Origin: SAR202 cluster bacterium
GTDB taxonomy: Bacteria > Chloroflexota > Dehalococcoidia > Lucifugimonadales > Lucifugimonadaceae
DNA length: 47,992 nucleotides
Reading direction: 5' to 3'
Assembly (NCBI GenBank): GCA_016872495.1
Contig: VGZT01000016.1
Location: 1 to 47,992 of the forward strand
The position numbers were made by a program, and so were the translations under genes. The notes beneath the pieces were generated by a model. That model saw only the letters and a program-made list of their open reading frames with translations, did not search any database and was not told the origin of the DNA. How positions within the stretch are numbered: the first letter of the stretch is position 1; every line of letters begins with the position of its first letter. Below, in pieces: positions 7,080 through 26,588 of this stretch.

Positions 7080-8240
7080 TCAAAATCGAAGCGTCGCAGC
7101 AATCGCAGTGCGCGGTTGGCTGCCTGGCATCTCACCAAGCGGACGCGCGTGCACGGAGCCGCCGGCCACCGCGGTGAGTTGCGCCGCCAGGTCGAACAGG
7201 TCGTCCGCTCCCGCGACGCCCCTTCGCATTACCGTTATGATGCCCGACTCATGGTCGAACCTCCCCCACGTTACGGCCTCGTTGGCCACGAAGAGGTCGA
7301 GCACGCGGCCGGCCGCGGCCGCTGGAAGTACCGCCCCAAGACCGGTGATCCCGCGCCCGGTTCCCTGCAACTTGTCGTAGCGCGCAGTCGCATCTGCCGC
7401 TGCCTTTTTTGCGTCGGCGGCCGCGGCAAGCCTGGCGCGCGCCGCGAGGTCGTTGTGACCGACCTCATCCGGGTTGCCGGTCACACCCCTCCTGGCGACA
7501 TTCGAGTAGGAACTGAGACGCCGGAAGGCGGTGGCCACCGGGGCGTCGGCGGCCAGTACGAGCAGTTCCGGCGGCGTTTGCATCAGGCCCTTCAGCTTCG
7601 CGTCGATGAACCGGAGGTACTCCTCCAATCGTTCCTTGACGGTGTCTTCGCCTCCGCCCTGCCCGTGATAGACGGGCCGGCCGCCGCGACTCGATCCCCG
7701 ACCCAGGCCATGAAACTGGAGGCTGCGATCGGCTTCGTTCTGCCACGGCAGGGCGTCGAACCCCTGCGGCATGCCCGCGTCCTTTAGCTCGGTGACCGTC
7801 TCGCCATCGATCCGGATCAGCCGCGCGGTGCGGCCGCTGACCGCCAGCACAAGGATCCGGTCCTCGGCGCCAACCAGCGGCAGCAGCTGCCGGGTGAGGA
7901 ACCGCCGGCCAACGTGGGTTCCAGACTGGACCGGAGCTGGCAGACGGAAGGCACGGAACCATCCGGGCGCCGCGAACAGCGCCAGACCCTGGCCACGGTC
8001 GCGCCAGGTGCCGGGGCTGGTCGCCAGTTCTAAGACCGGGTCGAGAAGGTCGGCGGCCTCCTTGTCCACGAGGCCTTGCGCTACAAGCTCCCTTCGGGCC
8101 TTCTGGACCGCGGACCTGACCGCCGTCTTGTCGGCGCGCGCGGAGGGCCCGGCGCCCTCTAGCTGCAAGTAGATCGAGGCAGCGGGCCATGACCCGCGCC
8201 GGGCAAGCTCAACCAGCGTCTCCGGTGAAATCCTGTACAC
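7080..8240 (-). CDS. baeRF family 3-like protein (bacterial relative of archaeo-eukaryotic release factor 1)
   Basis: 386 residues from the GTG at 8240. That start is chosen because GGAGGAG lies six bases before it; an in-frame GTG at 8255 is the longer alternative. The pattern matches baeRF family 3 proteins: N-terminal SWPAASIYLQ, then GLALFAAPGWFRAFRLPAPV and GRRFLTRQLLPLV; a middle domain opening ILVLAVSGRTARLIRID; and a C-terminal L7Ae-like domain ending in VLDLFVANEAVTWGRFD and DDLFDLAAQLTAVAGG. baeRF proteins are predicted to act at the ribosome in rescue or stress; activity is not proven. No GGQ motif seen. Box K lies upstream, placing it in the shared regulon. A compact paralogue is at 17398-18117. 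Confidence 0.8.
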   Translation of the reverse strand: MYRISPETLVELARRGSWPAASIYLQLEGAGPSARADKTAVRSAVQKARRELVAQGLVDKEAADLLDPVLELATSPGTWRDRGQGLALFAAPGWFRAFRLPAPVQSGTHVGRRFLTRQLLPLVGAEDRILVLAVSGRTARLIRIDGETVTELKDAGMPQGFDALPWQNEADRSLQFHGLGRGSSRGGRPVYHGQGGGEDTVKERLEEYLRFIDAKLKGLMQTPPELLVLAADAPVATAFRRLSSYSNVARRGVTGNPDEVGHNDLAARARLAAAADAKKAAADATARYDKLQGTGRGITGLGAVLPAAAAGRVLDLFVANEAVTWGRFDHESGIITVMRRGVAGADDLFDLAAQLTAVAGGSVHARPLGEMPGSQPRTAIAATLRF

Positions 8241-8272
8241 GTGCAACTCCTCCACGCTACGCCGCTTAACCG

Positions 8273-8668: not shown

Positions 8669-11600
8669 ATGGAACACAGGGTTTCCCGTCGAGACTTCCT
8701 CAAGGTTGCGGGCGCCGCGAGCGCCGCGACGGCAGCGACCGCATTCATGGGCCGGCTGGCCTTCCTCCAGGCGATCGACGAGATAGGTAACCCACTCGAC
8801 TTCTACCCGAACCGGGGCTGGGAGAAGGCGTACCGGGACCTCTACCGAACCGACCAGTCGTTCATCTTCCTGTGTGCCCCGAACGACACCCACAACTGCC
8901 TGCTGCGCGCATATTCGAAGCGGAACGTCGTTACGCGGGTCGAAGCCTCATACGCGTACGGCGACGCGGTCGATCTGTACGGGAATCGCTCGACCCACCG
9001 GTGGGAGCCGCGCGCCTGCAACAAGGGACTTTCGATGATCCGGAAGTTCTACGGCGACCGCCGCGTCAAGGGTCCGATGATCCGAAAGGGATTCCTGGAC
9101 TGGGTCGAGGCCGGATTCCCTCGTGATGCGACCGGGGTTCCTCCCCGCCAGTACTTCAACCGGGGGCAGGACGACTTCATCCGGGTTACGTGGGACCAGG
9201 CATTCCAGATCGTGGCGAGCGCACAGGTAAACATCGCGACGACCTATAGCGGACCCTCTGGCGAAGCGAAGCTGCGGGCCCAGGGCTACGACACCGACAT
9301 GCTCCCGACAATCGCGGGCGCGGGCACGCGCACCCTGAAGTACCGGGGCGGCATGCCGTTCCTTGGCGCCACCAGGCTCATGGGGTTCTACCGGCAGGCG
9401 AATGTGATGAGCCTGCTCGACAGCCACATCCGAGGAGTCAGCGGAGCCGAAGCGAAGGGCGGGCGTGTGCTCGACTCCTACAGCTGGCATACCGACCTGC
9501 CGCCCGGGCACCCCATGGTCACCGGCCAGCAGACGGTTGACTTCGACCTGTTCACCGCCGAGAACGCCTCGGTGATCACCATCTGGGGGATGAACTGGAT
9601 TTCTACGAAGATGCCGGACTCCCACTGGCTCACCGAGTCCCGGATCAAGGGCGCGAAAGTCGTGGTGATCGCCTGTGAGTACCAGTCGACTGCCAACAAA
9701 GCCGACGAGGTGCTGATCATACGACCCGGCACCGACGCCGCCCTGGCCCTGGGGATGGTCCACGTGATCATGCGCGATGGCCTGTATGACCAGGGACACG
9801 TCAAGAGTTCGACCGACCTTCCGCTCCTGGTTCGCATGGACACGCTGAAGCTGCTGCGCCCGAGCGAGGTGATTCCCGGGTACCAGGATCAACCCCTGTC
9901 GAACTTCACAAAGGTGCTGAAGGAGGGCGAAAAGGCGCCCGTCAACTACCTCCAGGACTCCCAGTACATTCCGGAGGGCCTGCGCAAGGAATGGGGCGAC
10001 TACACGGTCTGGGACAAGGCGAAGGGTGAGATCAAGGCGCTCTCGCGCGACCACGTGGGCGACAAGTTCAAGGCCCTGGGCATTGACCCGGCCCTGGAGG
10101 GGACGTTCGTCGTCAAGACCACCGACGGGAAATCGGTGGAGGTGCGCCCGGTATTCGACCTGGTCAAGGAGTATGCGCAACAGCTTGACCCGAAGACGGT
10201 CTCCGAGATCACATGGGCGCCGCCTTCGGCCGTCGAATCGATCGCCCGCATGCTGGCCGCGAACCCGGGCAAGAGTTTGCTCGTGCACGGCATGGGCCCG
10301 AACCACTTCTTCAACAACGACCTCAAAGACCGCGCGATCCTGCTCCTCGCCGCAATCACCCGGAACATCGGGTTCATGGGCGGGACGCCCGGCTCGTACG
10401 CCGGCAACTACCGGGCCGGCTACTTCAACGGGCTGCCGCACTACATCGCCGAGGACCCGTTCAACCCGGTCCTGGATCCGGCCGCGCCGGTGACGCCGAA
10501 GAGCTACTACAGCACCGAGTCGGCCCACTACTACAACTACGGCGACCGCCCACTGCGCGTCGGTAACAAGAATTTCACCGGCAAGACGCATATGCCCAGC
10601 CCGACCAAGATGATCTGGTGGGCGAACTCGAACTCGCTGCTCGGAAACATCAAATGGGCATACGACGTCGTCCACAACACCCTTCCGAAGATCGACATGC
10701 TGGTCGTAAACGAATGGTGGTGGAACTGGTCCTGCGAGTACTCGGATGTCGTGTTTGGGGTGGACTCCTGGCTCGAGTTCAAGCACGCCGATCTGGCTGG
10801 CTCGGTGTCGAATCCGTTCGTCACGGTGTTCCCGCGCACCCCGGTGCCGCGGCTGTTTGACACGGTCTCAGACATCGAGACGCTTGCAGGCGTTTCCAAC
10901 AAACTGGCAGGCATCACCGGAGACCGTCGTTTCTCCGACTACTGGCACTTCGTGAACACGAACCAGGTGGAGGTCTACCTGCAGCGAATCGTCGACAACA
11001 GCACTACGCTGCGCGGGTACGACTTCCTGGAGATGGAGGCGCTCGCCAAGAAAGGCGTGCCGACACCAATGCTGTCGCGCACCTATCCGAAGGTGGTCGG
11101 CTGGGAGCAATCGAACGAGAGCAGGCCCTGGTATACCAAGACCGGTCGAGCCGAGTTCTACCGCGAAGAGGGTGAATTCATCGATCACGGGGAGAACATG
11201 CCGGTCTGGCGGGAGCCGGTCGACGCCACGGAACGCGAGCCGAACGCCCTCCTCGGAAAGCCCCACGCCGCTATGCGGCCTGTAACCCCTGACAAGTGGG
11301 GGATCGATCCGAAGGACCTGAGCGTCGAGAGCCGCCAGGTCAGGAACGTCCAGAGACCCTGGTCGGAGCTCCGCAACACGAAGCACCCGAAGGCGGCGGA
11401 CGGCTTCCGATTCCTGTTCATAACCCCGAAGTATCGGCACGGCGTGCACACCACACCGACCGACATCGACACGGTCGCCGCCTACTTCGGTCCGTTCGGT
11501 GACCCGTACCGGCACGACAAGCGGAACCCGTGGGTCAACGAAGGTTATGCCGACATGAACCCGCTGGACGCCAAGGACCTGGGGCTTGAGGACGGAGACT

Positions 11601-12130
11601 ACATCTGGATCGACGCGGATCCGGAGGACCGGCCTTACCGCGGCTGGAAGGCCGGCGACGAGGACTACAAGGTCGCACGCCTGATGTGCCGGGCCCGTTA
11701 CTACCCGGGCATACCAAGGGGCGTGGTCCGCATGTGGTTCCACATGTACCAGGCGAGTCATGGCACGGTGAAGGCCCACGAGAGTCGGCCCGACGGCCTG
11801 GCCAAAAACGAGAAGACGGGCTACCAATCCGTGTTCCGGTATGGCGGCCACCAGTCGGCCACCCGTGCCTGGTTGCGCCCGACGCTCCAGACCGATTCCC
11901 TGGTGAGGAAGCCATCCATGGGCCAGGTGCTTGGCAAAGGCTTCGAGGCCGACGTCCACTGCACGGTCGGCGCCCCGAAAGAGGCCTACGTGAAGATCAC
12001 GAAGGCCGAAAGCGGAGGCATCGGCGGGGTCGGCATGTGGCGGCCAGCGACGCTCGGGATCCGGCCGACATACGAGTCCGCGGCTTACAAGTCATATCTG
12101 GGCGGCGAGTTCGTCCGGGTTAAGAAGTAG
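8669..12130 (+). CDS. Molybdopterin oxidoreductase alpha subunit, NxrA/NarG-like (type II DMSO reductase family)
   Basis: 1153 residues. A Tat signal (SRRDFLKVAG) marks export. The N-terminal cluster site reads C69-x3-D73-x3-C77-x39-C117, so an Asp takes the place of one Cys, as I recall for periplasmic nitrite oxidoreductases. The segment YSWHTDLPPGHP carries D276, matching the Asp that ligates molybdenum in NarG-type enzymes. Blocks such as RRVKGPMIRKGF, GMNWISTKMPDSHW and VIIRPGTDAALALG closely recall NxrA of Nitrospira, anammox bacteria and related nitrate reductases. Likely reaction: nitrate reduction or nitrite oxidation outside the membrane, with two molybdopterin guanine dinucleotides; the direction, or another substrate, cannot be read from sequence. 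First gene of a five-gene operon behind box B. Confidence 0.88.
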   Translation: MEHRVSRRDFLKVAGAASAATAATAFMGRLAFLQAIDEIGNPLDFYPNRGWEKAYRDLYRTDQSFIFLCAPNDTHNCLLRAYSKRNVVTRVEASYAYGDAVDLYGNRSTHRWEPRACNKGLSMIRKFYGDRRVKGPMIRKGFLDWVEAGFPRDATGVPPRQYFNRGQDDFIRVTWDQAFQIVASAQVNIATTYSGPSGEAKLRAQGYDTDMLPTIAGAGTRTLKYRGGMPFLGATRLMGFYRQANVMSLLDSHIRGVSGAEAKGGRVLDSYSWHTDLPPGHPMVTGQQTVDFDLFTAENASVITIWGMNWISTKMPDSHWLTESRIKGAKVVVIACEYQSTANKADEVLIIRPGTDAALALGMVHVIMRDGLYDQGHVKSSTDLPLLVRMDTLKLLRPSEVIPGYQDQPLSNFTKVLKEGEKAPVNYLQDSQYIPEGLRKEWGDYTVWDKAKGEIKALSRDHVGDKFKALGIDPALEGTFVVKTTDGKSVEVRPVFDLVKEYAQQLDPKTVSEITWAPPSAVESIARMLAANPGKSLLVHGMGPNHFFNNDLKDRAILLLAAITRNIGFMGGTPGSYAGNYRAGYFNGLPHYIAEDPFNPVLDPAAPVTPKSYYSTESAHYYNYGDRPLRVGNKNFTGKTHMPSPTKMIWWANSNSLLGNIKWAYDVVHNTLPKIDMLVVNEWWWNWSCEYSDVVFGVDSWLEFKHADLAGSVSNPFVTVFPRTPVPRLFDTVSDIETLAGVSNKLAGITGDRRFSDYWHFVNTNQVEVYLQRIVDNSTTLRGYDFLEMEALAKKGVPTPMLSRTYPKVVGWEQSNESRPWYTKTGRAEFYREEGEFIDHGENMPVWREPVDATEREPNALLGKPHAAMRPVTPDKWGIDPKDLSVESRQVRNVQRPWSELRNTKHPKAADGFRFLFITPKYRHGVHTTPTDIDTVAAYFGPFGDPYRHDKRNPWVNEGYADMNPLDAKDLGLEDGDYIWIDADPEDRPYRGWKAGDEDYKVARLMCRARYYPGIPRGVVRMWFHMYQASHGTVKAHESRPDGLAKNEKTGYQSVFRYGGHQSATRAWLRPTLQTDSLVRKPSMGQVLGKGFEADVHCTVGAPKEAYVKITKAESGGIGGVGMWRPATLGIRPTYESAAYKSYLGGEFVRVKK

Positions 12131-12139
12131 GGGTTGGCG

Positions 12140-13267
12140 ATGCCCAAGGTCTTCAACTGGCAACTGAACCGGGAGATGGACTACCCCTACCCGGCGGCGA
12201 TACCGAAGAAACAGTTCGCGGCGGTGTTCGACCTGAACAAGTGCATCGCATGCCAGACCTGCACCTTCGCCTGCAAGAACAGCTGGACCGTGGGGCGCGG
12301 CCAGGAGTTCATGTTCTGGAACAACGTCGAGACCAAGCCCTACGGCGGGTACCCGATCGCATGGGACGCGAAGCTGCTCGAGATGCTGGGCCCGCAAGGA
12401 TGGGACGCCGGCACATACACGGGCAAGACGATCTTCGAGGCGGCCCCGGCAGGACGCGCCGCCCTTGGTTTCCTGCCCGAAGAGCTCGACTGGATACACC
12501 CGAACATCGGCGAAGACGAAACGAGTGGAATCGTCCCTGGCGGGATGCACATGACGATCCCGCACGACGTATGGAACTTCTACCTGCCTCGGATCTGCAA
12601 CCACTGCTCGTTCCCGGCCTGCCTCGCCGCTTGCCCCAGGAAGGCGATCTACAAGCGCAAGGAGGACGGCGTCGTCCTGATCGACCAGGAGCGATGCCGC
12701 GGCTATCGAGAGTGCAACCGCGCATGTCCCTACAAGAAAGCGATGTACAACGGCATCACCCGCCTTTCGGAGAAATGCATCGCCTGCTTCCCCATGATCG
12801 AACAGGGACGCCAGACGCAGTGCATCGTGAACTGCATCGGCAAGATCCGGATCGCAGGCTGGATCCGCCAGCCGAAGGACATCGACGAGGAAGCACCGGT
12901 CGATTTCATGGTCCATGTTCGCAAGGTCGCCCTGCCGCTATACCCGCAGTTCGGCCTGATGATGAACGTCTACTACATGCCCCCGATCCACGTCCCGGTC
13001 CCCTACCTCCAGCAGATGTTCGGGCCAGGCGTCGAGCACGCCCTCGAGGTCTACCGGAACGTGAAGGACGACGAGCAGCTGCTCGGGCTGTTCCTGCTCA
13101 TGGGTTCGACCGACCGGTGGGTCGACAAGTTTCGCGTGAAGGACGGCAAAGCCTTCGGCTACGACGCGAAGGGCTCGGAGATCGTCCGGGTGCCGATCAA
13201 GGAGCCCAACTTCGTGCGCCCGTTCCACGACGTCGCCCGCAACACCTTCCGGCACAACATCACCTAG
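12140..13267 (+). CDS. Four-cluster iron-sulfur beta subunit, NxrB/NarH-like
   Basis: 375 residues from ATG 12140, preferred over TTG 12134 because GGGG lies seven bases upstream. Cluster motifs run C-x2-C-x2-C-x3-C (CIACQTCTFAC, near residue 35), CNHCSFPACLAACP, CRGYRECNRACP, and a C-terminal group (KCIACFPMIE ... QCIVNC). In the third motif a Tyr replaces the second Cys, the position that is Trp in NarH and goes with a [3Fe-4S] cluster. It passes electrons between the molybdenum subunit and the heme-b gamma subunit. Without its own signal it is presumably exported with the alpha subunit by the Tat system. Nine bases separate it from the alpha gene. Confidence 0.88.
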   Translation: MPKVFNWQLNREMDYPYPAAIPKKQFAAVFDLNKCIACQTCTFACKNSWTVGRGQEFMFWNNVETKPYGGYPIAWDAKLLEMLGPQGWDAGTYTGKTIFEAAPAGRAALGFLPEELDWIHPNIGEDETSGIVPGGMHMTIPHDVWNFYLPRICNHCSFPACLAACPRKAIYKRKEDGVVLIDQERCRGYRECNRACPYKKAMYNGITRLSEKCIACFPMIEQGRQTQCIVNCIGKIRIAGWIRQPKDIDEEAPVDFMVHVRKVALPLYPQFGLMMNVYYMPPIHVPVPYLQQMFGPGVEHALEVYRNVKDDEQLLGLFLLMGSTDRWVDKFRVKDGKAFGYDAKGSEIVRVPIKEPNFVRPFHDVARNTFRHNIT

Positions 13268-13277
13268 GCGGCTGAGG

Positions 13278-14363
13278 ATGCGCATCACCGGTCAGAAGCT
13301 CTGGGTCGCAGGTATCGCAGTGTTCGCCGCTGGCATTGGTGCGGCAATGGCGGGCGCCGGCGTGGCTTCCGCCCAGGCCCAGCCGCAGCTGAGGTCGGTT
13401 TACGTCGCCGGTGCCCTACCAGTCACAGACCCGACCTCCGCGTCGTGGGCACAGGCCGCCCCGGTCAACGTCGCACTGACCCCGCAGATCGTGACGGTTC
13501 CGATGCTCCTCAAGGGCACCATCCCTTCGCTCGAGGTCCGGTCCCTGAACAACGGCGACTGGATCGCATTCCGCCTCGAGTGGGAGGACTCGTCGCTTGA
13601 CGGCACGGCGATCACACAGGACAAGTTCAGGGACGCCGCGGCGATCCAGCTGCCCGTCGACCCATCGATTCCAGGCGTATGCATGGGAGTGCGTGGACAG
13701 CCCGTTAACCTGTGGCATTGGAAGGCAGACTGGCAGACCGACATCGACGCCGGCTTCCAGGACCTGACCAACGCCTACCCGAACTTCTGGAAGGACTACT
13801 ACCCCTTCGCGGTGGGCAAACCCCCGTTCGTCGTACCGCAGGACTTCGCCGACGCTGACGCGCGCCGTTACCTGGTTGGCTGGGCCGTCGGCAATCCGCT
13901 GTCCCAGCCCGCGCGTGTCACCCCGATCGAGGAGCTGGTGGCGCACGGGTTCGGGACCGCGGCCAGCCAGTCGAGCCAGTCCGTCCTGGGGCGGGGCCAG
14001 TGGCAGAACGGGAGATGGTCGGTTGTTTTCGCCCGGCCGATGACAACCTCCGGGCCAGACGAGGCCCAGTTCACGCCAGGCGGAAAAGGCTTCGTGGCCG
14101 TGGCCGCGTGGAATGGATCCAACCAGGAGGTCGGTGGACGGAAGCAGATCTCCGCGGACCTGGCTCTCACGGTCGCCGCCCCTCCCGCGCCCGCACAGCA
14201 GGTGTCCCAGGCTCCGATACCGGCCCCTGCAGAGCCAAGCTTCGTGAAGCGGTACTGGTGGGCGGGCGCAGTCGTCCTGGCCGCCTTGCTGGTGGCTGGC
14301 GCAGCAGTCCTCGGCGACCTCTACGGCAGGCTGTCAGCCGCGGAGCGGAAGGTGACCGAATGA
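13278..14363 (+). CDS. Heme-b gamma subunit (ethylbenzene dehydrogenase gamma/NxrC-like) with C-terminal membrane anchor
   Basis: 361 residues. N-terminal signal peptide (about 1-33, cleavage near ASA-QA). The body fits the EB_dh heme-binding domain: an early strand WIAFRLEWEDSS and then VCMGVRGQPVNLWHWKADW, where M136 is a candidate axial heme ligand (Met/Lys ligation is known for EbdC). After a Pro/Ala linker a single helix (about 326-350, WWAGAVVLAALLVAGAAVLG) anchors the complex. EbdC-type gamma subunits are normally soluble, so the anchor is a useful feature for membrane attachment in the absence of a NarI gene here. Overlaps the chaperone gene by ATGA. Confidence 0.82.
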   Translation: MRITGQKLWVAGIAVFAAGIGAAMAGAGVASAQAQPQLRSVYVAGALPVTDPTSASWAQAAPVNVALTPQIVTVPMLLKGTIPSLEVRSLNNGDWIAFRLEWEDSSLDGTAITQDKFRDAAAIQLPVDPSIPGVCMGVRGQPVNLWHWKADWQTDIDAGFQDLTNAYPNFWKDYYPFAVGKPPFVVPQDFADADARRYLVGWAVGNPLSQPARVTPIEELVAHGFGTAASQSSQSVLGRGQWQNGRWSVVFARPMTTSGPDEAQFTPGGKGFVAVAAWNGSNQEVGGRKQISADLALTVAAPPAPAQQVSQAPIPAPAEPSFVKRYWWAGAVVLAALLVAGAAVLGDLYGRLSAAERKVTE

Positions 14364-14995
14364 CGAGCGCCACCGGAATCAACCTGGCCGCTGCAGGTGA
14401 CCTGGCCGTGCTGCTCTCCCGTGGGCTGGCCTACCCGGCGCCGGAACTACACGGCGACCTCACCCGCGGTGAATTTGGCAAGGCGTTGTCAGCGGCCGCG
14501 GACGCTTGCGGGGTCCCGCTCCAGTCAGGACTGGTCGACGGCCTGGCGGTTGAGGCTGCCCGGGTGGGGTACGTGGGCCTGCAGGGCGAGCACACGAGGC
14601 TCTTCGCCCGCACGGTGCCGTGCCCGCCCAACGCATCGGCGTACGAGCCGAAGGACGGCCTCAGGACAACCCGCAGCGTCGGCGAGGTTTCAGCCTTCTA
14701 CGAAGCCTTCGGCTTTCAGGTCTCGCCAGGCGCACACGAGCTGGCCGATCACATCTCGGTCGAGCTCGAATTCCTGGGCGTTCTCGCGGTCAAAGAGGAG
14801 TATGCCAGGCAACGCGGCTGGCGTGGCCGCATGGCGGTGTGCCGGGACGCGCGGACGAAGTTCGCGGCGGAGTACCTGGCGCCGTGGATCGGTCAGCTGG
14901 CGGCCCGTGTCGAGAAGCATGCCGGCCTGATCCTGTACCCGGCAACGGCCTCCACCGCAACCCGGCTCGTCAGCCTGCTCGAAAGGCCCGACTAG
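14360..14995 (+). CDS. TorD/DmsD-family maturation chaperone
   Basis: 211 residues from the ATG at 14360, which overlaps the gamma stop (ATGA). This is inside a longer open frame whose 5' part is a shadow. All-helical protein with the family landmarks: an early LAVLLSRGLAYPAPEL, the HTRLFARTVPCPPNASAYE segment (the 'YxxLF ... P P Y' motif) and DHISVELEFLGVLAVKEEYAR. TorD/NarJ-type chaperones bind the Tat signal and help insert the molybdenum cofactor, here for the 8669 protein. Confidence 0.85.
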   Translation: MTSATGINLAAAGDLAVLLSRGLAYPAPELHGDLTRGEFGKALSAAADACGVPLQSGLVDGLAVEAARVGYVGLQGEHTRLFARTVPCPPNASAYEPKDGLRTTRSVGEVSAFYEAFGFQVSPGAHELADHISVELEFLGVLAVKEEYARQRGWRGRMAVCRDARTKFAAEYLAPWIGQLAARVEKHAGLILYPATASTATRLVSLLERPD

Positions 14996-17397: not shown

Positions 17398-18117
17398 TTG
17401 CGTCATACGGATTTGTGGTTTTCCAGGATCGACCGAGGGTCGATCGTCGAACTGGGTGCCGCAAGGTCAGGCCCCTGTCTTTCTGCGTTCTTCCCGGTAC
17501 CTGCCCGCTCCGATGCTCGCAATCGAACTTTTGACGCGGTCTATGACCAGGTCTCTTCCGCGCTCAAGGCAAACCTGCCCACAGGTCTCGCAGCAGCGAT
17601 TCTGCGCGGCGTCGGTTCCGTTCTGGCGGCTCCCAAGTCCTGGCGTCCCGCTTGCGAGAGCCTTGCTGTCTACTCATCGGGTGACACATTTGCAGTCGTT
17701 GCGGCGAGCCTGAAACTGCCGCACTCCGTCCAGATCGCCCCCCGATTTCTTACACGCCCGCTACTACGAGGGCTGGCAGAGGAACCTCGTTATGACAGGC
17801 GGGCACTTCTCGGAAAGTCGATCGACCAATTGCCAGGGCGGCGGACGGTAACCGGGATCGCAGAGATCCTTCAAGCAGCTGCGCGTGGTGAGGTCCGCTA
17901 CCTCCTGCTTACCGAAGATGGAGTGGCCCGTGGCAGGGCCGACCCCGGAACTGGCGAGGTGCTCGAGACAACGACTCCTGGCCCCGAAGACGACGACCTC
18001 CTCGACCTGGCGGCGGTAAAGACCCTGGAAACCGGCGGGCAGGTAGGCGTCGCGCGACGGGGTCAATTGGCGACGCGCGGTAGCATTGTCATCGCGGTAG
18101 TCGCAGAAGGCCACTGA
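17398..18117 (+). CDS. Compact baeRF family 3-like protein lacking the middle domain
   Basis: 239 residues from TTG 17398 (TTG 17413 is also possible). The N-terminal part (GPCLSAFFPVP near 25; ESLAVYSSGDTFAVVAASLKLP near 87-108; APRFLTRPLLRGL near 114-126) aligns with the N domain of the 386-residue baeRF protein at 7080-8240. The C-terminal part (LLLTEDGVARGRADPGTGEVLETT; DDDLLDLAAVKTLETGGQVGV) aligns with its L7Ae-like domain. About 150 residues of the middle domain are absent, with the frame intact. It may be a shortened ribosome- or RNA-binding partner. Not a decayed gene by eye: frame, codon use and box D upstream are intact. Confidence 0.65.
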   Translation: MRHTDLWFSRIDRGSIVELGAARSGPCLSAFFPVPARSDARNRTFDAVYDQVSSALKANLPTGLAAAILRGVGSVLAAPKSWRPACESLAVYSSGDTFAVVAASLKLPHSVQIAPRFLTRPLLRGLAEEPRYDRRALLGKSIDQLPGRRTVTGIAEILQAAARGEVRYLLLTEDGVARGRADPGTGEVLETTTPGPEDDDLLDLAAVKTLETGGQVGVARRGQLATRGSIVIAVVAEGH

Positions 18118-20663: not shown

Positions 20664-20729
20664 GCTCATGCATCCCTCACGAATCGCCAGGGAGTCGTCA
20701 CATCCCGTTCACAGGACCAGGTTGATACT
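20664..20729 (+). promoter_or_regulatory. Four-hexamer regulatory box G with -10 element (selenoprotein gene)
   Basis: Hexamers GCTCAT (20664), CCTCAC (20675), CGTCAC (20696) and GTTCAC (20707), spaced 11-21-11. The -10-like GATACT at 20724-20729 follows after 11 bases. Boxes F and G are divergent and only 16 bases apart. Confidence 0.8.
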
Positions 20730-20805: not shown

Positions 20806-21393
20806 TTGCGATCGGCAGCTTCGAAGCGAAACAGAGGAGAACGGATCAGGCGCGCGAGTGGCCGTAGCCCTGGCACTTTCCGCCTTGCGATCGTCACGGC
20901 GGCGACGGTCGTAGCTGCGTCCGCAATCCTGATCGGCGCCTTCGCTCTGCTCCGTGACCCTGGCGGGCGGCCGCAGCCGTTCACCGCGACGACCACGGCG
21001 GGGAGCACCGTTGTCGTGCCCGATCCTGGTCGACCAACGGTGCTGGTCTTCTACCGGGGATTCTTCTGAGGGATCTGCCGCCAGCAGCTCGTTGAGCTGC
21101 AACAGGGTTACCCGACGTTCCTGGAGCGCGGGGTACAGCTGGTCGCCATCAGCACCGACGGCATGCGTGATGCTCGAAACATGGCCACCCTGTCCGGTGT
21201 GACTTATCCCGTGATCCCTGATCCTGACACGAGGATCAGCCGAAGCTATGGCGTCTTCGATCTCCTGGGCGATGGCGTCGCAGCCCCCGCCGTATTCGTG
21301 ATCGCTTCGACCGGCGAGATCGTCTGGCGTCATATCGGCAGAGATATCGCGGATCGGCCCACTCCGGCGGAAATCCTCGGACAGCTGCCCTAG
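20806..21393 (+). CDS. Probable selenocysteine-containing peroxiredoxin-like membrane-anchored protein (in-frame UGA)
   Basis: One continuous frame of 195 codons interrupted only by TGA at 21067-21069 (codon 88). TTG start with AAAGGA five bases upstream. A hydrophobic segment (about 26-48) anchors it, with the domain probably outside the membrane. The text LVFYRGFF-U-GICRQQLVELQ matches the active site of AhpC/TSA (peroxiredoxin-like) proteins, FYRGxWCPxCRxxL, with UGA exactly where the peroxidatic Cys stands, giving U88-x-x-C91. The fold continues normally afterwards (LVAISTDGMRDA, YPVIPDPDTRISRSYGVFD, PAVFVIASTGEIVWRHIG). UxxC forms of this family are known bacterial selenoproteins. A SECIS-type hairpin follows at the right distance. 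Box G lies upstream. No sel genes in the window. Confidence 0.85.
21084..21100 (+). other. Candidate bacterial SECIS hairpin
   Basis: A perfect 7-bp stem (GCAGCTC/GAGCTGC) with loop GUU. The loop G is 22 bases after the UGA. Bacterial SECIS elements need a small apical loop with a G among its first two bases at roughly 16-37 bases from the UGA, so this fits. It lies inside the coding sequence as expected for bacteria. Confidence 0.75.
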
Positions 21394-21427: not shown

Positions 21428-21493
21428 CTTCACGAGTTCCTCACCACACTTGAACCGGCGGTCACGGGTTCCTCACATAGCGGCTCATAACGT
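21428..21493 (+). promoter_or_regulatory. Four-hexamer regulatory box H with -10 element (permease gene)
   Basis: Hexamers CTTCAC (21428), CCTCAC (21439), GGTCAC (21460) and CCTCAC (21471), spaced 11-21-11. The -10-like TAACGT at 21488-21493 follows after 11 bases. Expected transcription start is about 21500, at or beyond the first ATG codons, so the present 5' end of the gene is abnormal. Confidence 0.8.
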
Positions 21494-22540
21494 ATGCCCA
21501 AATGCCGAGTGACGCGGGGCCCCAGGAGAGGGCTCGGAGTCTACAGACACCGGCGCGGGACACAAGGAGAGGTCGCGCTAGGTTTCGGGGGGTATCTGGG
21601 TTCGATAACACCGGTGCCGATCGTCCTGGGCGCCCTCGGACTGATCACCGCGACTGCCCTGCTGGCATGGTGGGGCATCGGCGAATCAGTCGCACTGGCT
21701 GTGGTCTTCACGATCGTGGAGATCGGCGGACTCGTCTTCATAATCGCCGTCGGCGTGCCGGACTGGGGGAGCGTCGACTACTTCTCGACTCCACAAGGGT
21801 TCGGAGGGATCTGGACCGCGTCCGCACTCGTGCTCTTCGCCTACCTGGGCTTCGACGAACTCGGAAACCTCGCCGAGGAGACTCGCCGACCGGAACGTAC
21901 GCTTCCCGTGGCTCTTGCGATCGCTTTCGCAATTTCTTCGGTGATATACGTGCTGGTGGCCATCTCGGCGGTCAGTGCCGTCGGGTGGGAGGTGCTCGCA
22001 GGGTCGGACGCCCCGCTCGCGGAAGTCGCCAGCAAGGCGCTGGGCGGCAACGCCGGCAGGATGCTGACCCTCGTCGCCCTCGCGGCCACGGCGAACACGG
22101 TCTTGCTCTTGCTTGTGGCCGGATCGAGATCCCTGCAGGGGATGGCTTCGTCCGGGGTCCTGCCAGGCGCGCTCGCGCGGATCGGTCGGCGCCGCACGCC
22201 CTGGATTGCGCTCATTGTCACCTGGCTGGTCTCAATCTGTTTCGCTCTGATCGGTGACCTCGAACTCGTGGCTGGCATCACGAACGCCGCCATCCTGTTC
22301 AGCTTTGTGATCGTCAACCTTGCCCTGATTCGCACACTGAGGCGGCTACGGAAGGGCGCATCGTTGCGCGGTCTCGTCTTCGACCTCCTGATCCCAGGCG
22401 GGGCCGCCATCTCGTGTCTGGCGCTGCTTGCTCGAACCGGGGGCGTGGCTATCGGACTGGCCGCCGTGCTCGGGATCGTGGGACTGGTGGGCGGCGGGCT
22501 CCTGGGGCAGCGAGGCCGAGAATCCGGCGCGGTGGTCTAG
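21494..22540 (+). pseudogene. APC-family amino acid permease lacking its first membrane helices
   Basis: 348 residues; family members have about 430-480 and 12 helices. Similarity starts at VALGFGGYLGSITPVP, which corresponds to the region of TM4-TM5; later landmarks are GFDELGNLAEETRRPERTLP and GSRSLQGMASSGVLPGALARIG, both typical of APC permeases. The first 28 residues are Arg-rich and unlike any permease N terminus. A second ATG frame at 21502 opens MPSDAGPQERARSL, which looks more like a permease cytoplasmic tail but is out of frame. Simplest reading: a deletion of about 110-130 codons joined the original start to TM4, shifting the frame. The core binding helices TM1 and TM3 are lost, so transport activity is unlikely. 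Confidence 0.7.
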
Positions 22541-24011: not shown

Positions 24012-24752
24012 CTATTCGGTGAACCGGTATCCCACCCCTGGCTCGGTGATGATGTGTGCCGGCCGCGAGGGGTCACCTTCGAGTTTGCGGCGCAGCTGCT
24101 TGATGAACGTTCGGAGATATTCCGTCTCCTCACCGTACTCCGGCCCCCAGACGCCTTGAAGTAGCTGGCGATGGGTAAGGACCTTGCCGGGGTTCGTGAC
24201 GAGCATTCGGAGCAGGTCGTACTCCGTGCGGGTCAGGTGCACCTCGGTTCCAGCGCGCTTGACGAGCCGCGCACCCAGGTCCACCTGGACTTCGCCGAAC
24301 TCGACCACCGCGGTGTCGGACTGGCCGGCAGCGGACAGGCGATCCGCACGCCGGAGCGACGCCCGGACTCGCGCGGCCAGCTCAGCGGGACCAAACGGCT
24401 TGGTCATGTAGTCGTCCGCACCGAGATCAAGGGCGCGCACCTTCTCGCGCTCCTGGTCGGCGGCAGAGAGGATGATGACCGGCGATTGGTACCACTCTCG
24501 CAACCTCTTCAGGGCCTCAAACCCGTCCATCACGGGCATCGAAAGGTCGAGGACGATCAGGTTGGGCTGGTGAAGGGATGCCAGGTACAGGGCCTCTTCC
24601 CCGTTCTCCGCCGCCCACACCTCGAAACCCTCGTTCAACAGGTACCGCGACAGAAGCCGCCGTATCTGGACGTCGTCATCCGCAATCAGGACCCCTGATT
24701 TGGTTCTGCGCCTGCTGGTCACCAAGCTAGCTGGCTCCGACCTTTGCACCAT
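24012..24752 (-). CDS. OmpR/PhoB-family response regulator (KdpE-like)
   Basis: 246 residues. The receiver domain (about 18-135) keeps the acidic pocket (ADDD near 24-27), phospho-acceptor D69 in LIVLDLSMP, and K118 in YMTKPFG. The C-terminal winged helix (about 150-245) shows LTRTEYDLLRMLVTNPGKVLTHRQLL, TEYLRTFIKQLRRKLE and TEPGVGYRF; the 'LR-x-FIxQLRRKLE-D' wording recalls KdpE. No kdp genes are in the window. OmpR-family regulators bind direct repeats with 10-11-bp period, the pattern of the twelve boxes, so it is the best candidate for their binder. Encoded 36 bases downstream of the kinase, on the same strand. Confidence 0.88.
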   Translation of the reverse strand: MVQRSEPASLVTSRRRTKSGVLIADDDVQIRRLLSRYLLNEGFEVWAAENGEEALYLASLHQPNLIVLDLSMPVMDGFEALKRLREWYQSPVIILSAADQEREKVRALDLGADDYMTKPFGPAELAARVRASLRRADRLSAAGQSDTAVVEFGEVQVDLGARLVKRAGTEVHLTRTEYDLLRMLVTNPGKVLTHRQLLQGVWGPEYGEETEYLRTFIKQLRRKLEGDPSRPAHIITEPGVGYRFTE

Positions 24753-24788: not shown

Positions 24789-26588
24789 TCATGAGTGTGT
24801 GGGAACCGTAAACCAGAAGACCGAACCTTTTCCAGGTGCCGAGCGCACCCCGACCTGGCCCCCGTGGGCGGTTACGATCGCCTTGCAGATCGCAAGGCCA
24901 AGCCCCGCACCCCGCCCTTTCCGCCCTGAAGACGTTATGCGGAAAAACTTATCGAAGAGCCTTGCGATCTCGCCGGGGGGGATTCCGATGCCCCGGTCCT
25001 TGATCTCGACCCTTATTTCGGCGCCGCCTCCAGGTGCGCGTGCCGTGAGGTCGATGGGACCGTCCGAGTACTTGAGCGCGTTGCTCAGGAAGTTGTCGAC
25101 CACCCGCCCGATCTGTCCGGGATCGGCATACATAGAAGGCAATGTGGCAGGGACGCGGAGTCTTATCGTTCGGTCTCGCCACTGGGCGGCACGCCTTACC
25201 CGGCGAGTGGCGTCGCCACAGATGTCGAGAAGATGGCACTCTTCGCGCTCCAGCGGGTACGAACCCGCCTCGATCCTGGACATGTCGAGCAGGTTATTCA
25301 CCAGCTCGGCCATCTGATCGACTTCCTCGTCAATGGCCTCGACAAGCTCCTGGACGTTCTCTCCCCTGCCGTGGCGACCGAACGCCTCGGTGCTCAGTCC
25401 CTTGATGGTCGTCAACGGCGACCTGAGGTCGTGGGTAATCATCGAGAGGAAGTCGGCCTTGGCTTCGTCGAGCTCCTTGAGGCGTGAGATGTCCTGGAAG
25501 ATGACCACTCCCGCCACGACCTTCCCGGAAGCATCGTTGACCGGTGCTGCATGCAGCAGCAACGGCATCCGCCCGCCGCCCTTGCGCTCAAAAACAACCT
25601 CCTCGGACCGGACGATCTCTTTGTCGCGGATCGCACGGTAGAGGGGTAGCTGATCCGGGTCAATCTTCGTCCCGTCCGGGCGCCGGTAGGTGAAGTACTT
25701 GTGAAGCGAGCTCCTGGTGATCCCGGCCTTGACCGGCATGCCGAACAGGCGGCCAACCTCTTCGTTGACCAGCACGATTCGATCCGTGTCGGCGTCGGTC
25801 ACGATCACGCCGGCCGGCGCCGCGGCCGCGAAGGCCTCGAGCCTCCTGCGCCCGTCTTCCGCCACCGCGCGCAGTTGCTCGGCCTCCGACCGCAGGCGCC
25901 TCTCCCGCTCGTGAAGGCGGGCATGCTCGAGGGCCGCGGCGACATGCTGCGACGCGGTCTCGACCAGTTGCTGATCTTCGACGGTGAACGGCCCATGTCC
26001 CGGCCCGCGCGTGAGGTACAGGTTTGCCAGGTGCACCCCGTTCCGCTGCACCGCAACTCCCAGAAGCGCCTCCATCGTAGGGTGGCCGGCCGGGAAGCCG
26101 ACCGACTTGGGATGGCCCGAGATCCGGTCCACGCGGAGCGCCGACGTCTCAGTTCCCATGAGGCCGAGCACGCCTCTGCCGGAGGGAGGTGGGCCCATCT
26201 GGGCCACCTTATCGGGCGTGATTCCTGAAACAAACATGTGCTCGATCACGCCCGTTTCGCCCAGGACCGTGATAGCCCCGTAGTCGGCGCCGACCAGCAT
26301 GCGGGCCAGATACGGGAGGGAAGCGAGCGTACGCACCGACTCAGGGGCGTCCTCCGGGAGCCTCGGTGTGCCCTTGTCGGACGCGTAGACAACGGCAGCC
26401 GCGCCCGGGCGCGTGATCTCCGAGATGGCTCGCCATGAATAGAGGTTGCGACCGCGGGTGCCGCGCCCCCTGGTCGCCACACGTTTTTCTTTTACGAGTC
26501 GCCTGAGCCGACTGATCGGGATACCACTCAGGCGAGCGGCATCCTGAATCGACACCAGGTCGTCGTCGACCTGCTTGCGGACTGGCAA
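24789..26588 (-). CDS. Sensor histidine kinase: HTH-GAF(DosS-like)-PAS-HisKA-HATPase
   Basis: 599 residues, no membrane segments. Residues 8-60 form an excisionase/MerR-like DNA-binding fold (VSIQDAARLSGIPISRLRRL ... GRNLYSWRAI). Residues about 85-225 are a GAF domain whose text (PPSGRGVLG; ISGHPKSVGFPAGHPTMEALLGV; ANLYLT) closely parallels GAF-A of mycobacterial DosS/DevS. H169 aligns with DosS His149, the heme ligand, and H159 with the other His of that segment. A PAS domain (about 250-370), HisKA with H386 (SMITHDLRSPLT), and a HATPase domain with N box (DNFLSNALKYS), DRGIGIP and GRGAGLGLAI follow. Predicted cytoplasmic heme-based oxygen/NO/redox sensor; partner of the 24012 regulator. TTG start. 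Confidence 0.87.
   Translation of the reverse strand: MPVRKQVDDDLVSIQDAARLSGIPISRLRRLVKEKRVATRGRGTRGRNLYSWRAISEITRPGAAAVVYASDKGTPRLPEDAPESVRTLASLPYLARMLVGADYGAITVLGETGVIEHMFVSGITPDKVAQMGPPPSGRGVLGLMGTETSALRVDRISGHPKSVGFPAGHPTMEALLGVAVQRNGVHLANLYLTRGPGHGPFTVEDQQLVETASQHVAAALEHARLHERERRLRSEAEQLRAVAEDGRRRLEAFAAAAPAGVIVTDADTDRIVLVNEEVGRLFGMPVKAGITRSSLHKYFTYRRPDGTKIDPDQLPLYRAIRDKEIVRSEEVVFERKGGGRMPLLLHAAPVNDASGKVVAGVVIFQDISRLKELDEAKADFLSMITHDLRSPLTTIKGLSTEAFGRHGRGENVQELVEAIDEEVDQMAELVNNLLDMSRIEAGSYPLEREECHLLDICGDATRRVRRAAQWRDRTIRLRVPATLPSMYADPGQIGRVVDNFLSNALKYSDGPIDLTARAPGGGAEIRVEIKDRGIGIPPGEIARLFDKFFRITSSGRKGRGAGLGLAICKAIVTAHGGQVGVRSAPGKGSVFWFTVPTHS

Follow-up and report, generated by a model that had tools for sequence, protein, structure and literature searches.

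The question raised by this locus is whether the TGA inside the reading frame at 20806-21393 ends a protein or encodes selenocysteine (Sec), and what kind of protein is made if it is read through. The window, i.e. the whole stretch of 47,992 nucleotides that was analysed, is contig 16 of a 2.34-Mb genome that is 98% complete. A single 195-codon frame runs from 20806 to 21393 on the forward strand, and its sole interruption is the TGA at 21067-21069, which lies within FYRGFF-U-GIC; beyond it the frame is open for another 107 codons and ends at a TAG. In the gene sequence from 20806 there is no in-frame ATG upstream of the TGA, and the start codon is a TTG at 20806, 5 nt past a Shine-Dalgarno-like AAAGGA. 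A standard gene finder calls two separate pieces, one of 87 aa at 20806-21069 and one of 76 aa at 21163-21393. That a UGA falls inside this motif of an otherwise open frame, and that gene finders would split or truncate the gene, had been claimed in a preliminary description of this DNA, and both statements hold. The features of the gene are read as follows.

20806..21393, + strand: predicted selenoprotein gene, 195 aa, Sec as residue 88 (reading of the frame, homologues)
20878..20952, + strand: predicted single transmembrane helix, residues 25-49, signal anchor
20977..21390, + strand: AhpC-TSA/redoxin domain, residues 58-195, thioredoxin fold (profile and structure model)
21067..21069, + strand: in-frame TGA, predicted Sec88 of U88-G-I-C91 (codon conserved in UxxC homologues, Cys codon in Cys relatives)
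21084..21100, + strand: predicted bacterial SECIS hairpin, 7-bp stem, loop GUU, loop G 22 nt past the UGA (conservation, covariation)

We also screened 54 other TGAs of the window that have 70 open codons on each side, and no other paired redox motif with a well-placed hairpin was seen among the cases listed.

Absence of the Sec-decoding genes would speak against Sec at this codon. It is excluded, as selA (535 bits), selB (345 bits), selD (377 bits) and the tRNA-Sec gene selC (70.3 bits, anticodon UCA) are all present in the genome, the last on a contig of the bin that is only 6.4 kb long. The selD gene (L023, G000:C38:5060-5983) is itself a selenoprotein gene, with its own in-frame TGA in CAGUAGK, at what we take to be the position that holds Sec or Cys in other SelD proteins. 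The genome has a second UxxC selenoprotein on contig 13 (L058, G000:C13:14105-14584, minus strand), a predicted lipoprotein with the motif FYRAWW-U-TSC. A homologue of the window gene (E below 1e-12) was found in 112 of 250 genomes of the same order. The selA gene occurs in 100 of these 112 genomes and in 101 of the 138 others (Fisher P=0.0014, relatedness ignored), and 11 of the 12 homologue-carrying genomes without selA are less than 90% complete.

Nearly all matches listed in the search of the 250 genomes contain exactly one in-frame TGA. We read 129 distinct UxxC copies, 114 from the genomes of the order together with copies from 50 named public records (the sets overlap), and in all 129 the TGA stands at the Sec88 codon. 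The named records come mainly from Dehalococcoidia and SAR202-cluster Chloroflexota, with some from Anaerolineales, Gemmatimonadota and Latescibacterota. The motif search demanded C or U and then xxC, so that the conservation of C91 and Q94 is partly by construction; Cys at position 88 was accepted by this search, and none was found. An alignment with Cys-containing homologues, as the preliminary description had proposed, places the TGA against TGC or TGT in four more distant relatives. These four stop-free relatives were considered as counter-examples and ruled out, as all are CxxC proteins. UGA is also used for ordinary termination, as at the end of several homologues.

In several genomes two or three copies lie next to one another, in the variants FYRG-F, FYRA-W and FFRxWW. 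Three UxxC selenoprotein genes of differing subtypes stand in tandem at L048, L056, L068, L072, L087, L097, L099 and L105, in genomes of the same family. The closely related members L122, L125, L127, L130, L138, L159 and L040 belong to Gemmatimonadota, Latescibacterota and one Chloroflexota genome, which suggests inter-phylum transfer or bin contamination. For the window copy itself we do not conclude horizontal transfer, since it was left unplaced on a long branch (0.91) in a quick tree. Its nearest relatives belong to other families of the order and, because of this and of the long branch, a recent relaxation of the window copy is still conceivable.

The hairpin downstream of the TGA (GCAGCTC-GTT-GAGCTGC, loop G at 21091) has the stem, loop and distance that had been noted for it before. 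Alone, it is weak evidence, and it becomes decisive only through its conservation. Its single-sequence folding energy is no better than that of shuffles (z 0.01), and hairpins as strong as this one, with a G in a loop that begins 20-24 nt further on, follow 9 of the 1224 TGA triplets of the window. An Rfam search of the window gave no match. Among 114 copies, the loop of the best hairpin begins at nt 21-22 in 100, and the stem falls within the codons Q-L-V/G-E-L. The pair 18-28 is G-C in 48 copies, A-U in 48, G-U in 17 and mismatched in 1 (n=114); nt 18 is the third base of the Gln codon and nt 28 the first base of the Leu codon, so that the covariation proceeds via synonymous choices. Codon usage at the second stem Leu is skewed as the stem requires, with TTG in 65 of 114 copies compared with 21 of 241 downstream Leu codons. 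The covariation score was 0.247 (58 sequences) against 0.134 (SD 0.014) after shuffling and at most 0.072 for slid partners, and the mean stem score in 65 divergent representatives (<70% identical) was 15.5 against 8.0 (SD 0.52) for codon-resampled controls at matched GC3. As the homologues are non-independent, the P values overstate certainty, and the test on 65 representatives and the sliding control offset much of this. The hairpin is absent in the four CxxC relatives that were checked. Judged by its conservation in the family, the hairpin at 21084-21100 is the SECIS. A selenoprotein with a SECIS, as first proposed, is supported by the sel genes, the invariant TGA and the covarying hairpin, and we conclude that 20806-21393 almost certainly encodes one.

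The kind of protein is suggested by its fold and its active site. The AhpC-TSA domain (PF00578) is matched over residues 58-174 with 77 bits against a cut-off of 26. The AlphaFold model of the gene product (mean pLDDT 85) matches Bcp4 (Z 22.8) and AhpE (Z 21.4) over ∼143 residues, and ResA is among the top Foldseek matches. The preliminary description had the UGA on the peroxidatic Cys position, which our alignments contradict. In the profile alignment to solved AhpE and PrxQ, where FFPLAF-T-GIC of AhpE is set against FYRGFF-U-GIC, it is Cys91 that aligns with the peroxidatic Cys (Cys45 of AhpE), and Sec88 falls on the Thr of the Prx TxxC motif and Arg84 on the Prx Pro. Pro161 is aligned with the catalytic Arg116 of AhpE, a column confirmed by the entry of the R116A mutant. 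Three of the four Prx signature residues (Pro, Thr, Arg) are replaced and only Cys91 is kept, so that the protein has neither the PxxxTxxC pattern nor the active-site Arg of canonical peroxiredoxins. Arg84 is found in 129 of 129 copies, and Pro161 in 98 of 129, with Ala there in 28. The UxxC motif of Prx-like UxxC selenoproteins is present as U88-G-I-C91, and all copies have UxxC; in ResA/TlpA-type oxidoreductases the redox pair is CxxC-spaced and a conserved Pro precedes the next strand, a position to which Pro161 may correspond. The site looks thioredoxin/ResA-like, and from its sequence the protein would most probably work outside the cytoplasm as a selenol-thiol oxidoreductase or as a peroxidase.

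The location is suggested by the N-terminus, where the predicted helix at residues 25-49 agrees with the membrane anchor noticed earlier. A simple rule finds a lipobox and a hydrophobic segment in 77 of the 129 copies and a hydrophobic segment without a lipobox in 14, the window protein being of this latter type; the remaining 38 include fused or unresolved N-termini. An extracytoplasmic site would be the natural reading, and the outward orientation is a prediction.

From the recoding site and its conservation, the SECIS, the Sec machinery, the predicted fold and the anchor, all of which are read from the DNA, we propose the following mechanism. The UGA at 21067-21069 would be decoded as Sec by SelB and tRNA-Sec(UCA), with the hairpin at 21084-21100 as the guiding signal. 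Through the N-terminal helix, the AhpC/TSA-fold domain would be fixed to the membrane, most probably at its outer face. Sec88 could then act as the attacking nucleophile and Cys91 as the resolving thiol, forming a Se-S bond that may be reduced by an extracytoplasmic dithiol donor. The substrate could be a peroxide or a disulfide, the latter in a protein or in a small molecule, and the gene may be induced through the local TCAC-N7-TCAC boxes. We consider this explanation as a whole, a membrane-anchored Prx-like UxxC selenoprotein with SECIS-directed Sec, to be very probable.

It could be argued that the gene is a pseudogene or a sequencing error, in which a Cys gene is cut by a change of TGC or TGT to TGA, as the window gene comes from a single draft assembly and lies on a long branch. 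Such an accident is very unlikely to have put a TGA at one and the same codon of 129 distinct homologues, which come from many genomes and several phyla, keep the protein sequence on both sides of it and share a hairpin that is conserved and covaries. That the UGA is read as another amino acid (Trp under code 4, or Cys/Trp by suppression) would account for the open frame, and nothing else was found in its favour. We regard it as extremely improbable, given that the genome has the full selA/B/C/D set, that UGA also ends several homologues, that a SECIS follows the UGA and none follows the Cys codons of the relatives, and that the redox pair is complete only with Sec or Cys.

A different chemistry of the same selenoprotein deserves more weight. 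The Prx fold, and the position of Cys91 on the peroxidatic Cys45 of AhpE, would fit a true peroxidase in which Cys91 is peroxidatic, as in AhpE, and Sec88 is only resolving. However, the Prx Pro, Thr and Arg are all replaced, thioredoxin-type spacing is kept by the CxxC relatives, and in UxxC proteins it is usually the Sec that attacks as nucleophile. While this alternative is a serious one, we think it rather unlikely, and we prefer Sec88 as the probable nucleophile.

The preliminary description had called this a new selenoprotein, and as a kind it is not. UxxC Prx-like selenoproteins were catalogued by Zhang in 2005 as 'Prx-like' (PMC1088965); the same UxxC type appears in ocean data as Prx-like 1 (Zhang 2008, PMC2398784), and a 2026 review (PMC13188914) gives it under PF00578 as 'Prx-like thiol:disulfide oxidoreductase'. 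The window gene is a further member of this already-known type, and is widespread in its order. With the published proteins it shares PF00578, UxxC in place of TxxU, a bacterial SECIS and Cys homologues (PMC1088965, PMC2398784, PMC13188914). It would differ from them in that the group here is membrane-anchored or lipoprotein, has the signature FYRGxFUGxC, is nearly Sec-only in its order and often stands in tandem with further UxxC copies; the published sets may already include this subgroup.

Among named families, the best NCBIfam model is NF040769 (SelL-related redox), matched by all 25 members, and the window protein, at 60.4 bits, does not reach its cut-off of 120. SelL has the motif UxxU, unlike the UxxC of the window protein. 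Mycobacterium tuberculosis AhpE, a 1-Cys peroxiredoxin, shares the fold (rmsd 1.8 over 143 residues, with Cys91 on its peroxidatic Cys) but has neither Sec at the Thr of TxxC, nor the replaced Prx Pro and Arg116, nor a membrane anchor. Bacillus ResA, a membrane-anchored thiol-disulfide oxidoreductase, shares the CxxC-type spacing, the N-terminal anchor and the fold (TM-score 0.83 normalised to the target), but in the window protein Sec replaces the first Cys and the ResA-model score is 40 of 170 bits.

As to how the gene may be regulated, the window holds 14 copies of the core TCAC-N7-TCAC, where 1.6 would be expected. Of the strict form TCACNNNTTCCTCAC there are five copies in the whole genome, every one of them on the window's contig, and the reversed control gave none. 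The elements concerned are listed below.

765, 8290, 8534, 8570, 17313, 20600, 20631, 20698, 21430, 21462, 22573, 25690, 27691, 27723: TCAC-N7-TCAC boxes, direct repeats
20698..20712, + strand: core box TCACATCCCGTTCAC, 94 nt upstream of the selenoprotein start codon, candidate operator
21430..21476, + strand: strong boxes TCACGAGTTCCTCAC and TCACGGGTTCCTCAC, between the end of the selenoprotein gene and the permease gene at 21494
24012..24752, − strand: response regulator of the OmpR/PhoB type (KdpE-like), which may bind the boxes
24789..26588, − strand: GAF-PAS histidine kinase, probably paired with this response regulator

Genes that begin close to boxes are those of a type II DMSO-reductase-family operon (8669-) and those for universal stress proteins, a CBS protein and the permease. 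Of the regulon box claimed for the selenoprotein gene, the box as such is real and common to stress and respiration neighbours, but the copy upstream of the gene fits the looser core only, not the strict form. The boxes at 21430-21476 are more likely a candidate operator of the permease gene. The direct-repeat spacing of 11 bp suits an OmpR/PhoB-type regulator and for this reason points to the response regulator at 24012-24752 as a possible binder. That TCACNNNTTCCTCAC is confined to the contig suggests a locus-specific two-component regulon. A box-mediated link of the selenoprotein gene to it is plausible, and the proposed link between selenium and stress would be deduced from this promoter box.

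The gene is of interest for its abundance, its anchoring and the near-absence of Cys forms in its order. More than 100 sampled genomes of this uncultured lineage carry the family, often in multiple copies. As its genes are cut short by standard gene finders, estimates of the surface redox capacity and the selenium demand of these bacteria are probably too low. With its clear covariation through synonymous codons, the hairpin provides a well-supported Chloroflexota SECIS that could be used to find more selenoproteins. We would tentatively suggest, with doubt somewhat outweighing confidence, that a nearly Sec-only extracytoplasmic UxxC family is general in SAR202-like Dehalococcoidia, and that one copy in this genome is under a locus-unique two-component regulon that also covers the type II DMSO-reductase-family enzyme and the universal stress and CBS proteins. 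Such a regulon would tie selenium use to respiratory or starvation stress.

The molybdoenzyme operon of the type II DMSO-reductase family extends over 8669-14992 and encodes a TAT-signal alpha subunit, an Fe-S beta subunit, a haem b gamma subunit and a delta chaperone; it scores below the cut-offs of the named enzymes. Two proteins encoded within the box-bearing region, at 7080-8255 and 17398-18117, are weakly similar to the ribosome hibernation factor family NF052287.
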